59,610 nucleotides of DNA, taken from the NCBI GenBank assembly GCA_944390745.1, contig CALXQK010000018.1, positions 1 to 59,610 on the forward strand, read 5' to 3'. This DNA comes from an uncultured Duodenibacillus sp. Its GTDB lineage: Bacteria; Pseudomonadota; Gammaproteobacteria; Burkholderiales; Burkholderiaceae_F. Shown in pieces: positions 18,993 to 44,082 of this stretch; within the stretch, counting starts at the first letter, position 1; each line of letters opens with the position of its first letter. The translations under genes were made by a program, and so were the position numbers. Under the pieces are notes generated by a model. The model saw only the letters and a program-made list of their open reading frames with translations. It was not told where the DNA came from and did not search any database.

Positions 18993-19805
18993 TCAGTTCT
19001 GTGCGCCCGTCTCGGGCTCAATCCAGATGAGCGCGGCATGGCGCCCGGTCCGGGCGCCGTCGCGCCGGTAGCTGTAAAAGCGCGCAGGATCCGAAACAGT
19101 GGAAAGCGCGCAGTCCTCCACGTCTGAAACGCCGGCCGCGGCAAACGCCCGGCGCGCGTATCCGGCAAGATCCAGGTACGCCTTGTCCTGCGTGCGGCGC
19201 ACGCACTCGGGCGCCTCGCCAAAGTGCGCCTCAAAGGCCGAGAGCACCTCAAGGCCCGTTTCAAAGTCGTCAAACCCGATGCGGGGCCCGAGCCAGGCGC
19301 GAAACTGCGCCTGAGCGCCCGCACCGGCGCCGTGCGCCTCATCGAGCGCCGCGCGAAGGGTGCGCACGGTCTCCTCGACAATGCCGCCGGCAAGGCTTCT
19401 CCAGCCCGCGTGCACCGCGGCCACGATGCTGCCGTCCCGGGAGGCGATGAGCACCGGCAGGCAGTCGGCCACCTGCACGACGCAAACCACGCCCGGGGTC
19501 ATGCTCCAGGAGGCGTCAGCCTCGGTCGTCTCGTCAAGGATGTCGTCGGCGCGCACCACGCGCGTGCCGTGCACCTGCGTCATCCAGCGCGGCGCCCCGG
19601 GGGCAAGCTGCGCAACGATCGAGCGGTTCATGCGCACGCAGGCGGCGTTGTCGCCCACGCGGCTGCCGACGTTCAATCCCATGACGCCCTCCGGGCCGCC
19701 CCAGGGGCCCGAGGAGACGCCGCCCAAGCGCTCGGTGAAAAGCGCCTTTGTCCGCGCGCCCAGATCCGGGCGCAGCACTTCGGTTTGCTTCTTGTAAATC
19801 GACAT
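18993..19805 (-). CDS. pgeF: PgeF/YfiH laccase-domain protein
   Basis: The 270-residue protein has the Cu-oxidase_4 (DUF152) signatures QVHGTRVV, VADCLPVLIAS, AVHAGWRSLAGGIVEETV and LGPRIGFDDFETG, including the His/Cys metal-binding set. Family members are variously described as polyphenol oxidases, purine nucleoside phosphorylases, and PgeF, which removes mis-incorporated L-Ser from UDP-MurNAc peptidoglycan precursors. The rluD-pgeF neighbourhood is conserved in many proteobacteria. A 104-nt gap separates it from rluD. Confidence 0.93.
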   Translation of the reverse strand: MSIYKKQTEVLRPDLGARTKALFTERLGGVSSGPWGGPEGVMGLNVGSRVGDNAACVRMNRSIVAQLAPGAPRWMTQVHGTRVVRADDILDETTEADASWSMTPGVVCVVQVADCLPVLIASRDGSIVAAVHAGWRSLAGGIVEETVRTLRAALDEAHGAGAGAQAQFRAWLGPRIGFDDFETGLEVLSAFEAHFGEAPECVRRTQDKAYLDLAGYARRAFAAAGVSDVEDCALSTVSDPARFYSYRRDGARTGRHAALIWIEPETGAQN

Positions 19806-39678: not shown

Positions 39679-40167
39679 CTATTTTTCTCCGAGCAATTTT
39701 CCGACCACGCTGTCGATGCGCTCGCGCGTGCGGCCCCACTTGGTGAGCGTGAGCTTTCCGGACTTGTAGCTTGCCGTCGAGACGAGCGTCTGGTTTTTGT
39801 AGAGCGACAGCTCCGCCGTGCCCAGGTAGGTCGTAAAGTCCCACGAGCGGCGCATGACGTAGTGCACGCGCCAGGGGCCGGGGCATGCGCTTGCCCGCTC
39901 GACCACCACCGCATGGATGCCGCGCTTTTCAAAGGCATCCCGCAGTCCCGGAATGGCTGCGCCGATCTTCACGCGCGGGTTGCGCACGATGCAGACCGTC
40001 CCGGGTTTTTGCGCAAGAGGCCGGTGCATCCTTCCGGAGACGGCGTTCTGCACCGAGTCCCGGGCCATCTCCACGGGATCGATGTCGGGGGTCTTCACGC
40101 TCGAGCAGCCCGCAAGAAGCCCGCAGGCGATGGTGATGCATAAAAAAAGCGCGCTGCCTCGGCTCAT
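39679..40167 (-). CDS. Sbal_3080-like family lipoprotein
   Basis: The 162-residue precursor has a lipoprotein signal with lipobox LLAGC (Cys20 or Cys21) followed by SSVKTPDIDP. The body contains VCIVRNPRVKIGAAIPGLRDAFEKRGI, CPGPWRVHYVMRRSWDFTTYLGTAELSLY and a Lys-rich TKWGRTRERIDSVVGKLLG end, which I recognise as the Sbal_3080-type lipoprotein pattern. Function is unknown. The ATG at 40167 follows AGGAG at 10 nt. Its promoter must lie in the shared region with the gltI control sites. Confidence 0.8.
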   Translation of the reverse strand: MSRGSALFLCITIACGLLAGCSSVKTPDIDPVEMARDSVQNAVSGRMHRPLAQKPGTVCIVRNPRVKIGAAIPGLRDAFEKRGIHAVVVERASACPGPWRVHYVMRRSWDFTTYLGTAELSLYKNQTLVSTASYKSGKLTLTKWGRTRERIDSVVGKLLGEK

Positions 40168-40377
40168 GACAACTTTTCTCCTGACGGCTGCGCGCCGCAC
40201 CCCGGGCGCAGACAAAGAAAACTCCACCCCTGGATCATCCCCAAAATCGCGGCGCCCTGTCAACACCGCCCGAAGAAAAAGCCGGCCTCCCCGTCCCCGG
40301 CATCCCCGCCCCGGCGTCAGGACCGCCTCTGAAAAGCGCCGCCTTTTTGTGCATCGGCCTTGCCGATCCTGAAGACT

Positions 40378-40426
40378 GCACCAGATTTGTGCGCTCTTTG
40401 CATGCATTTTTGCACTTAACTGGTGC
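40378..40426. promoter_or_regulatory. Two NtrC-type binding sites upstream of gltI
   Basis: The plus strand carries GCAC-TTAAC-TGGTGC at 40412-40426, and the minus strand carries GCAC-AAATC-TGGTGC across 40378-40392. Both match the NtrC consensus GCAC-N5-TGGTGC exactly. Their centres are 34 bp apart, close to the helical spacing of the paired sites at glnA in enteric bacteria. They lie about 245 and 280 bp upstream of the predicted sigma-54 start site, a workable enhancer distance. Confidence 0.8.
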
Positions 40427-40470
40427 ATAAAAGAGAAAGCTTCTCCTCGCCCGGCAGACTTCCGGAATTT

Positions 40471-40505
40471 CTTAAGCATTATCCCTTCCTCTCCGAATTC
40501 TTAAG
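40471..40505. promoter_or_regulatory. Two CTTAAG boxes upstream of gltI
   Basis: CTTAAG occurs at 40471-40476 (within GAATTTCTTAAG) and 40500-40505 (within GAATTCTTAAG), 29 bp apart. The motif is the same as in the array before the octaheme cytochrome gene. Confidence 0.4.
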
Positions 40506-40518
40506 AAGAGGCGAAAAA

Positions 40519-40538
40519 ACTAGTCACATCCGACTAGT
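40519..40538. promoter_or_regulatory. ACTAGTC inverted repeat upstream of gltI
   Basis: ACTAGTC-ACATCC-GACTAGT is a perfect 7-bp inverted repeat with a 6-nt spacer, centred about 135 bp before the predicted sigma-54 start. It looks like a dimer operator; the protein is unknown. Confidence 0.55.
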
Positions 40539-40635
40539 CCTCCTACGACATTTCTCCTAGAAAATCACTGGCTTTGAAGGGGTTTCCCGACAACCTCGCC
40601 CCCGGGGTCCGATTCGCGCGGGGATGGCGCACAAA

Positions 40636-40652
40636 CTGGCACGATCCTTGCT
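40636..40652 (+). promoter_or_regulatory. Sigma-54 (RpoN) promoter of gltIJKL
   Basis: CTGGCACGATCCTTGCT matches the sigma-54 consensus, with GG at 40638-40639 and GC at 40650-40651 separated by exactly 10 bp. Transcription should start near 40663, leaving a leader of about 95 nt before gltI. Confidence 0.88.
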
Positions 40653-40757
40653 TTGTTTATCGGCAGAAGGACTTGCACCGCAATCAGGCATCCCTGAGCG
40701 CAGGCAACTCCCCCGTGCATTCATTGAAAACACCAAGGACTTTTCAAGGAGCTTGTC

Positions 40758-41657
40758 ATGATTCCTGCTTCCCGCTTTGCTCTTGCCGCCGTCGCCGCCG
40801 CCGTGCTTGCGGTCAATGCCGTCACCGCCGCCGAGCTCACCGGCACGCTCAAGAAGATTCAGGAGACCGGTTCGATTACGCTCGGCTACCGCGAGAGCTC
40901 CGTTCCGTTTTCCTACCTTGACGCCGACGGCAAGCCCGTGGGCTACGCCTTCACCGTCTGCCAGAAGGTGGCTGAAGCCGCCCAGAAGGAACTCGGCCTT
41001 GCCAAGCTCGACATCAAGTACCAGGCGGTGACCTCGGCCAACCGCATTCCGCTCATCCAGAACGGCACCGTCGACATTGAGTGCGGCTCGACGACGAACT
41101 CGCTCGTGCGCCAGCGCGAGGCGGCCTTCAGCACGAGCTATTTCGGCATCCAGGTTTCCGCCGCGGTGTGGAAGTCGAGCGGCATCAACTCGCTCAAGGA
41201 CCTCAACGGCAAGACCGTTGCGGTCACCTCGGGCACCACGTCCGTGGCGCTCATGAAGAAGTTTGAAAAGGAAAACGGCATCAAGGTGCGCTACCTGATG
41301 ACGAAGGACTTTGCCGAGTCGATGCAGCTTGTGGCCAACAAGCGCGCCGACGCGTTCGTGCTTGACGACGTGCTGCTTGCCGGCCAGATCGCCAATCTCA
41401 AGAACCCGCAGGACTTCAAGATTCTTGACGCCGCCCTCTCGGTTGAGCCCTACGGCGCGATGTTCCGCAAGGACGACCCGCAGTTCAAGGCCCTCGTCGA
41501 CAAGACTGTCACGGGCATGATCAAGTCGGGCGAGCTCTCCAAGCTCTACACGCAGTGGTTCGAATCCCCGATTCCGCCCAAGAACGTCAACCTCAACTTC
41601 AAGATGAACAACTACACCAAGGAGCTCTTCGCGAACCCCTCGGACAAGGGCATCTAA
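40758..41657 (+). CDS. gltI: Glutamate/aspartate ABC transporter substrate-binding protein
   Basis: The 299-residue periplasmic protein has a Sec signal (residues 1-25) and a family 3 solute-binding fold: GTLKKIQETGSITLGYRESSVPFSY, PVGYAFTVCQKV, VDIECGSTTNSLVRQREAAFST, then YTQWFESPIPPKNVNLNF. These are typical of GltI/GtlI-type proteins that bind L-Glu and L-Asp. AAGGAG lies 8 nt before the ATG. It is the first gene of gltIJKL and is followed by a hairpin likely to lower transcription of the membrane components. Confidence 0.95.
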   Translation: MIPASRFALAAVAAAVLAVNAVTAAELTGTLKKIQETGSITLGYRESSVPFSYLDADGKPVGYAFTVCQKVAEAAQKELGLAKLDIKYQAVTSANRIPLIQNGTVDIECGSTTNSLVRQREAAFSTSYFGIQVSAAVWKSSGINSLKDLNGKTVAVTSGTTSVALMKKFEKENGIKVRYLMTKDFAESMQLVANKRADAFVLDDVLLAGQIANLKNPQDFKILDAALSVEPYGAMFRKDDPQFKALVDKTVTGMIKSGELSKLYTQWFESPIPPKNVNLNFKMNNYTKELFANPSDKGI

Positions 41658-41830: not shown

Positions 41831-42565
41831 ATGGCTTTGAACTTCAATCTGGACGCGCTCATGGAGCCCGCCCTTCTGGCCGACATGCCCTGGTGGCAGT
41901 ACATCCTGGGCGGCGCCGGCTGGACCATCGGGCTCATGCTGAGCTCCTTTGCCCTGGCCCTGGTGCTGGGCATCATCGTCGGCACGCTGCGAACCTCCCG
42001 GATCCGGGTTGTGAGCCTCGTCTGCGAGGCATGGATCGAACTGTTTCGAAACATCCCGCTCATCGTGCAGATCTTCGTGTGGTACTTCGTCATCCCCGAG
42101 TTCATCCCCTGGTACAAGCAGTGGATGATCGAGGTCGATCCGGTCTACTCGCAGTTTCTGACCGCCTTCATCTGCATGGGGTTCTTCACCTCCTCGCGCG
42201 TGGCCGAGCAGGTGCGCGCGGGCATCGCCTCAATCCCCGCGGGGCTGCCCAACGCCGCCCGGGCGCTCGGCATGACGCAGGTGCAGACCTACGGCTACGT
42301 GATCATTCCCCTGGCCATGCGGCTCATCGTGCCGCCGCTCACGAGCGAGGCGATGAACCTCGTCAAGAACACGGCCGTCGCCCTCACGATCGGACTGCCG
42401 GAACTTACGATGCGCGCCAATGAGATGGGAGAAAACACCTTCCAGTTCTTTGCGGCCTACATCTGGGCGACCTTCATCTACATCGTGATCGCGCTCGTGG
42501 TCAACGGGTTCATGCGCTATGTGGAAGCCCGCAGCGCCGTTCCCGGTCTCATTCTTGCCAAGTAG
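41831..42565 (+). CDS. gltJ: Glutamate/aspartate ABC transporter permease GltJ
   Basis: A 244-residue His/Glu/Gln-type permease with about five membrane helices: TIGLMLSSFALALVLGIIVGTLRTS, ELFRNIPLIVQIFVWYFVIPEF. Its EAA-loop region SIPAGLPNAARALGMTQVQTYGYVIIP contacts the ATPase. GAGGA precedes the ATG. The 15-nt gap to gltK shows cotranscription. Confidence 0.95.
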   Translation: MALNFNLDALMEPALLADMPWWQYILGGAGWTIGLMLSSFALALVLGIIVGTLRTSRIRVVSLVCEAWIELFRNIPLIVQIFVWYFVIPEFIPWYKQWMIEVDPVYSQFLTAFICMGFFTSSRVAEQVRAGIASIPAGLPNAARALGMTQVQTYGYVIIPLAMRLIVPPLTSEAMNLVKNTAVALTIGLPELTMRANEMGENTFQFFAAYIWATFIYIVIALVVNGFMRYVEARSAVPGLILAK

Positions 42566-42580: not shown

Positions 42581-43264
42581 ATGTTTGACTTTTCGTCCAT
42601 TACCGCATCCTGGGAATACATCCTGCGCGGCGCGGCCTACACGGTGGAGCTTACGGTCATCACGGCCGTCCTGGGCCTGGCGCTCGGCACGGGGCTGGCG
42701 CTGTGCCGGCTGTCGACCTCGCGCATTCTCTCGGAGTTCTCCCGGCTCTACACCAACCTGATGCGCGCCGTTCCGCTCGTGCTCGTGCTCTTCTGGTTCT
42801 TCCTGCTCATGCCCGAGGTGCTCAAGGTCATCCTGGGGCTCGACCACCCGGTGATGATCGGCGCCGATCTCACGGCCATCATCACGTTCGTGCTCTTTGA
42901 GGCGGCCTACTTCGCCGAGATCATGCGCGCGGGCATCCAGTCGGTGAGCAAGGGCCAGATGGGCGCGGCCAAGGCGCTCGGCCTCACCTACGCGCAGACC
43001 ATGCGCTACGTCATCCTGCCGCAGGCCGTGCGCAACATGCTGCCCGTGCTGCTCACCCAGACCATCATTCTCTTTCAGGACACGAGTCTGGTCTACGTCA
43101 TCAGCGGCAACGACTTCATGGGCGCGGTGAGCAAGATCGCGCAACGCGACGGCCAGCTCGTGCTCATGTACAGCTTTGCGGCCGTGTGCTACCTCACGGT
43201 CTCGGTGTCGCTGTCGATGCTCGTGCGGCGCCTGCAGGCCAGAATGGCCGTGGTCTCGCGCTGA
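42581..43264 (+). CDS. gltK: Glutamate/aspartate ABC transporter permease GltK
   Basis: The 227-residue second permease carries TVELTVITAVLGLALGTGLALCRLS, the NLMRAVPLVLVLFWFFLLMP motif and the EAA loop SVSKGQMGAAKALGLTYAQTMRYVILPQAVRNMLP. It forms the GltJ-GltK heterodimeric channel. A strong GGAGG lies upstream. It is followed after 83 nt by gltL. Confidence 0.95.
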   Translation: MFDFSSITASWEYILRGAAYTVELTVITAVLGLALGTGLALCRLSTSRILSEFSRLYTNLMRAVPLVLVLFWFFLLMPEVLKVILGLDHPVMIGADLTAIITFVLFEAAYFAEIMRAGIQSVSKGQMGAAKALGLTYAQTMRYVILPQAVRNMLPVLLTQTIILFQDTSLVYVISGNDFMGAVSKIAQRDGQLVLMYSFAAVCYLTVSVSLSMLVRRLQARMAVVSR

Positions 43265-43347: not shown

Positions 43348-44082
43348 ATGCCGATGATTGAAATCAAGAACGTCAGCAAGTGGTACGGCGACTTTCAGGT
43401 GCTCAAGAACTGCTCGGTGAACGTTGAAAAGGGCGAGGTGGTCGTCGTCTGCGGTCCCTCGGGCTCGGGCAAGTCCACGCTGATCAAGACGGTCAACGCG
43501 CTCGAGCCCTTCCAGCAGGGCGAAATTCTCATCAACGGCATCTCCGTCGGGGACCCCAAGACGGACCTGCCCAAGCTCAGAAGCCGCGTCGGGATGGTGT
43601 TTCAGCACTTTGAGCTCTTTCCGCACCTCTCGATTCGCCAGAACCTGGCTCTGGCGCAGATCAAGGTGCTCGGCCGCCCCAAGGACGAGGCCGAGGAGCG
43701 CGGACTGAAGCTTCTTGACCGCGTGGGACTTTTAAAGCACGCCGAGAAGTATCCGGGACAGCTCTCGGGCGGCCAGCAGCAACGCGTGGCCATTGCGCGG
43801 GCCCTCGCCATGGATCCGGTGTGCATGCTCTTTGACGAGCCCACCTCGGCGCTTGACCCCGAGATGATCAACGAGGTGCTCGACGTGATGATCGAGCTCG
43901 CGCAGGAGGGCATGACCATGATGGTGGTCACGCACGAAATGGGCTTTGCCCGCAAGGTGGCCGATCACGTGATCTTCATGGACGCGGGCGAGGTCATTGA
44001 AAACCTCCCCGGAGAAGAGTTCTTCAGCGCCCCGCACACCGACCGCGCGCAGAAGTTTCTCTCAAAGATCCTCAACCACTGA
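43348..44082 (+). CDS. gltL: Glutamate/aspartate ABC transporter ATP-binding protein GltL
   Basis: The 244-residue ATPase has Walker [11 protein letters not shown]-loop [12 protein letters not shown], signature [16 protein letters not shown], Walker [15 protein letters not shown] and H-loop [10 protein letters not shown], all of the polar amino-acid importer class. Starts at 43348 (MPMIEIKN) and 43354 are both possible. It ends the operon and is followed by a strong terminator. Confidence 0.96.

Follow-up and report, generated by a model that had tools for sequence, protein, structure and literature searches.

We found that the DNA upstream of the gltIJKL genes of an uncultured Duodenibacillus sp. 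carries a perfect sigma-54 promoter element together with two exact NtrC-type dyads, and we consider it very probable (about 0.9) that these genes are transcribed from an NtrC-activated, sigma-54-dependent promoter. The window, that is, the whole stretch of DNA analysed, comprises 59,610 nt (GCA_944390745.1, contig CALXQK010000018.1, positions 1-59,610). The DNA elements, the encoded machinery and the recurrence of the elements in relatives were observed directly, and they lend support to the preliminary description, which had read the region as NtrC/sigma-54 control of gltIJKL. Since such control is known in E. coli and Salmonella, the finding is largely expected: the elements at gltI are ordinary in kind, well supported and, as far as the open-access literature shows, a new instance. 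Mildly new are the failure to find an ammonium transporter, a second arrangement before a GsiA-like gene and a conserved CTAGTCACA element. This organization would couple the import of glutamate/aspartate to the response of little-studied gut bacteria to nitrogen starvation, and it offers a concrete, testable start for an Ntr regulon of Sutterellaceae.

Putative promoter and enhancer elements upstream of gltI

The gltIJKL genes encode a binding protein, two permeases and an ATPase, of the right types and in the right order, all on the plus strand. The GltI and GltK models were the best ones for the first and third genes, and all four genes scored below the cut-offs of the specific names: gltI, for a glutamate/aspartate-type binding protein (40758-41657; NF008063, 300.1 bits, cut-off 375), a polar amino acid ABC-type permease in the gltJ position (41831-42565; PRK15100, a cystine permease model, 129.4 bits, cut-off 300), a gltK-type permease (42581-43264; NF011687, 228.1 bits, cut-off 318) and an ATPase in the gltL position (43348-44082; GlnQ model NF007027, 307.8 bits, cut-off 379). 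The names GltJ and GltL were taken from gene order. On the minus strand, a divergent gene at 39679-40167 resembles an Sbal_3080-type lipoprotein gene (70.9 bits, below the cut-off of 80; its start at 40167 was picked by reading), and it is separated from gltI by the intergenic region 40168-40757.

The sequence CTGGCACGATCCTTGCT is located at 40636-40652, 106 bp upstream of the gltI ATG at 40758, where the preliminary description had placed a sigma-54 element. The putative promoter TGGCACGATCCTTGCT within it (40637-40652, plus strand; -24 GG at 40638-40639, -12 GC at 40650-40651) matches the pattern TGGCAC-N5-TTGCW with 0 mismatches, and predicts a transcription start around position 40663. This is the only match in the window, with 0.08 expected and at least one match in 8 of 100 shuffles, and one of 4 exact matches in the whole genome. 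When one mismatch was allowed, the genome gave 27 matches versus 84 for the reversed control, and one-mismatch matches, taken alone, therefore mean little. A consensus scan of the gltI upstream region detected no sigma-70 promoter on the gltI strand; on the minus strand it revealed a sigma-70-type promoter at 40263-40234, which could serve the divergent lipoprotein-like gene. No Rfam match was obtained at the gathering threshold between 39600 and 42000.

Further upstream, both predicted NtrC sites are exact copies of GCAC-N5-TGGTGC: site 1 (GCACAAATCTGGTGC, 40378-40392) on the minus strand and site 2 (GCACTTAACTGGTGC, 40412-40426) on the plus strand. Their opposite orientation and the distance of 34 bp between their centres, both claimed earlier, were confirmed at these positions. 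The 17-mer TGCACTTAACTGGTGCA of site 2 matches TGCAC-N7-GTGCA with 0 mismatches, and the outer arms of the two dyads form TGCACCAG/CTGGTGCA. The dyad cores begin about 225 and 259 bp upstream of the sigma-54 element. The window holds four exact dyads versus 0.26 expected, a number reached in 0 of 100 shuffles; the remaining two lie at 19553 and 55476, so that one exact dyad on its own says little. In the whole genome we counted 19 exact dyads versus 1 match for the reversed control pattern, and simple arithmetic from 19 matches in 2.22 Mb gives about 0.008 chance pairs less than 50 bp apart. Each element alone can arise by chance, while for the dyad pair together with the exact sigma-54 element a chance origin would be very unlikely. 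The case is carried, as we see it, by the combination of elements and by its recurrence in relatives.

Recurrence of the elements in related genomes

A search for gltI in the family (E <= 1e-70) yielded 26 copies in 25 of 67 genomes, and the 600 bp upstream of the start of each match were scanned. A sigma-54 element with at most one mismatch precedes 19 of these copies, and 14 of the 26 carry in addition an exact GCAC-N7-GTGC dyad. The conservation in relatives that the preliminary description had proposed to look for was thus found. Shuffling 24 of the upstream regions gave 0.075 and 0.325 expected copies for the single elements; the two copies outside this shuffle test, L158 (with only about 450 bases upstream) and L164, have neither element. 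Among the 12 copies lacking the combination (L143, L154-L160 and L162-L165), five retain a sigma-54 element (L154, L155, L157, L159 and L160), which in L154, L155, L157 and L159 is perfect and stands without an exact dyad. Relaxing the dyad to one mismatch was uninformative (21 of 24 copies versus 7.0 expected). The family copies of gltI are related and therefore do not represent independent events. At the same threshold, neither element was present before seven other binding-protein genes of the own genome, one of which (L140) has a sigma-54 match with two mismatches.

We also inspected the best 80 of at least 423 named gltI loci, one of which (L081) came without upstream DNA. Among four loci named Duodenibacillus or Sutterella, both elements were seen in L054 and L055, the sigma-54 element alone in L056 and neither in L053. 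In the other 75, which are defined by not bearing these names and whose family was not checked one by one, a sigma-54 element (at most one mismatch) was found in 7 and the dyad in 0. NtrC-type control is therefore not general for gltI, and in this sample the arrangement appears to be a property of this family. The closest named record among the matches listed was an uncultured Duodenibacillus, Sutterellaceae, with 90% identity.

Within the genus, gltI occurs in 4 of 10 genomes as 5 copies, and in four of these copies (the window, G006, G008 and the contig C75 copy of G007) two dyads are found 33-34 bp apart, the second beginning 183-226 bp before the sigma-54 element. The C75 copy has one imperfect dyad and one mismatch in its sigma-54 element. 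The upstream neighbour varies, being divergent in the window and apparently also in G007, and apparently co-directed in G006 and G008. Between enhancer and promoter, the element AAAACTAGTCACA (40516-40528, plus strand) is present in all four aligned upstream regions of the genus, and all four (the window, L141, L142 and L144) share AAAWCTAGTCACA between the dyads and the promoter. In the own genome, the only match to AAAWCTAGTCACA at 0 or 1 mismatch is the one upstream of gltI. The conservation of the intervening CTAGTCACA element suggests a further control of gltI. As a genome-wide regulon motif, CTAGTCACA was rejected: at up to two mismatches it gave 12 matches (one with 0, eleven with 2) versus 24 for the reversed control, and hence no sign of a regulon. 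Together with further CTAG/CTAC-like repeats, the conserved element is seen within 40516-40570 and in L141, L142 and L144. Separately, two gltI copies 90-91% identical to that of the window, L053 and L143, are devoid of NtrC and sigma-54 elements and sit, by reading, behind a gene resembling gamma-glutamyltransferase; the L143 copy (91% identity) shares genome G007 with the two-dyad copy.

Nitrogen-regulatory machinery and other putative targets

Both rpoN and ntrBC, the genes whose presence the preliminary description had left to be checked, were found in the genome (2.22 Mb, 99.83% complete). RpoN (TIGR02395, 367.6 versus a cut-off of 277.35), NtrC (TIGR01818, 675.5 bits versus 558.6) and NtrB (NF008293, 303.6 bits versus 240) all pass, the latter two at curated cut-offs, and one PII protein, GlnD (above its cut-off) and glnA (TIGR00653, 650.7 versus 429.15) are also encoded. 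Sigma-54 activator domains were sought as well, and five matches exceeded the cut-off, two strong, one lower and two weak; of the three best proteins, which were scanned further, a single one passes the NtrC model, matching it from end to end. By coordinates, with 257 bases between the two loci that were viewed, glnA on contig C9 adjoins ntrB and ntrC on the same strand. The glnA promoter resembles that of gltI in having a perfect sigma-54 element and an exact NtrC dyad, and differs from it in that the exact dyad core begins 90 bp upstream of the element and is accompanied by a partial dyad only.

A comparable arrangement was found on contig C13 (L040/L015). There, 160 bp separate an exact dyad (C13:314728-314742) from a downstream sigma-54 element with one mismatch (C13:314903-314918). 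The pair precedes a GsiA-like ATPase gene, whose truncated protein reached 629.4 with its best model versus a cut-off of 1077; a beta-aspartyl-peptidase-like gene (best model PRK10226, 291.9 versus 567) is oriented divergently to it. The three putative promoters suggest that glnA, gltI and the GsiA-like importer gene form a small Ntr regulon around glutamate.

No ammonium transporter AmtB was found in the own genome by a search that was positive in 14 of 14 control genomes; in the family, 42 of 67 genomes gave a match, 41 of them above the cut-off. Within the genus, AmtB is absent from three of four gltI-bearing genomes (gltI at E <= 1e-60) versus one of six without gltI (Fisher p = 0.19), where the AmtB-less genome without gltI is 85% complete and G002, counted as AmtB-positive, has only a fragment below the cut-off. 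This result is just a hint that gltI may have replaced amtB in the genus, and the co-occurrence of both genes in 6 of 12 genomes of genus g16 speaks against a simple swap. Because no AmtB was found, and because dyad/sigma-54 arrangements stand before gltIJKL, the GsiA-like gene and glnA, which itself precedes ntrBC, one might propose that the Ntr response of this lineage serves to recover organic glutamate/aspartate and peptides of the glutathione type rather than ammonium, that gltI replaces amtB in the genus and that a further regulator, specific to the lineage, acts at CTAGTCACA; we regard this fuller scenario as doubtful, with odds of perhaps one in a few.

Two further perfect sigma-54 elements are located elsewhere in the genome. 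The fourth exact match is L028 (C17:16518-16533). Element L027 (C12:61215-61230) precedes a flavocytochrome c gene (TIGR01813, 449.9 versus 285.45) and lies opposite the gene of a NifA/NorR-like activator, L003, which scores below the cut-offs of those models; the locus may represent a reductase under sigma-54 control that has a dedicated activator.

Proposed mechanism, known systems and alternative explanations

For the signalling from PII through NtrB to NtrC we follow the textbook scheme. At low glutamine, uridylylated PII would no longer restrain NtrB, which would phosphorylate NtrC. The two gltI dyads would then act as a distant enhancer to which NtrC-P binds cooperatively, and DNA looping over about 220-260 bp would lead to open complex formation by the sigma-54 polymerase at 40637-40652. 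The expected outcome is an increased glutamate/aspartate uptake under nitrogen limitation. An enhancer distance of about 225/259 bp is permissible but long, and, set against the 90 bp at glnA, it counts against NtrC control of gltI, as do the 12 family copies that lack the exact combination, the 91% identical L143 among them, and the imperfect dyad in G007.

In E. coli, NtrC ChIP-seq data include a peak at gltIJKL (PMC4066584), and in Salmonella gltIJKL figures among the operons predicted to depend on sigma-54, the regulon table assigning NtrC to it and gltI being entered in the sigma-54 binding table with TGGCACGTCTATTGCTTT (PMC3844500). Operon type, sigma factor and activator of these promoters are, according to these sources, as proposed here. 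The Duodenibacillus promoter has its enhancer about 220-260 bp upstream with the conserved CTAGTCACA in between. The NtrC-regulon table of Burkholderia cenocepacia includes a glutamate-type ABC importer with negative fold changes (PMC5491218). The open-access literature found for gltI consisted of enterobacterial and rhizobial papers, and that on Sutterella and NtrC contained, by title, nothing on this subject. As far as the open-access literature on gltI, Sutterella/NtrC and betaproteobacterial NtrC/glutamate transport shows, the present instance is unreported.

Another sigma-54 activator, AauR-like or L003 itself, might drive gltI while the dyads serve something else. In Pseudomonas, the counterpart transporter aatJQMP, an ABC importer of acidic amino acids, is described as controlled by AauR and RpoN, and its layout is similar, a predicted sigma-54 promoter being preceded by two activator motifs (PMC7962211); L003 is moreover a second strong sigma-54 activator in the own genome. 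However, the published AauR site, TTCGG-N4-CCGAA, is absent from the 600 bp before gltI even at two mismatches, on which ground AauR-like control was rejected, and unlike aatJQMP gltI has nitrogen-type dyads, of the same kind as at glnA. As for L003, its match to the NtrC model begins after the receiver part, and it faces its own perfect sigma-54 element before the flavocytochrome c gene. We thus judge an activator other than NtrC improbable. Chance resemblance to the consensus is still less credible: exact single dyads are found 19 times in the genome and a sigma-54 match appears in 8 of 100 window shuffles, but the pairing and the position speak against chance, and so does the finding that 14 of 26 family copies combine both elements, where 0.075 and 0.325 copies were expected for the single elements among the 24 tested.

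The dyads might also be intrinsic terminator hairpins of the upstream gene instead of protein sites, as a dyad hairpin followed by T-rich DNA does occur in some relatives (site 1 of G006, -20.0 kcal/mol, and of G008, -25.0 kcal/mol; L153, -23.5 kcal/mol; L151, -17.7 kcal/mol). In the window, however, the neighbour is divergent, the dyad hairpins are weak (-9.0 and -7.7 kcal/mol) and the interval 40168-40757 yielded no terminator-like site; the weak hairpins and the divergent neighbour led us to reject the terminator reading there. In G007, where the neighbour is apparently divergent as well, the dyads are kept nearly without a hairpin (-0.5 and -3.7 kcal/mol). That the dyads are retained even next to genes without need of a terminator argues for a protein site, and we give the terminator reading hardly any weight beside binding of NtrC. 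In L141, L142, L151 and L153, the NtrC-type dyads are also strong hairpins followed by T-rich DNA, and it is possible that the dyads of some relatives have a dual use, as terminator and as enhancer.
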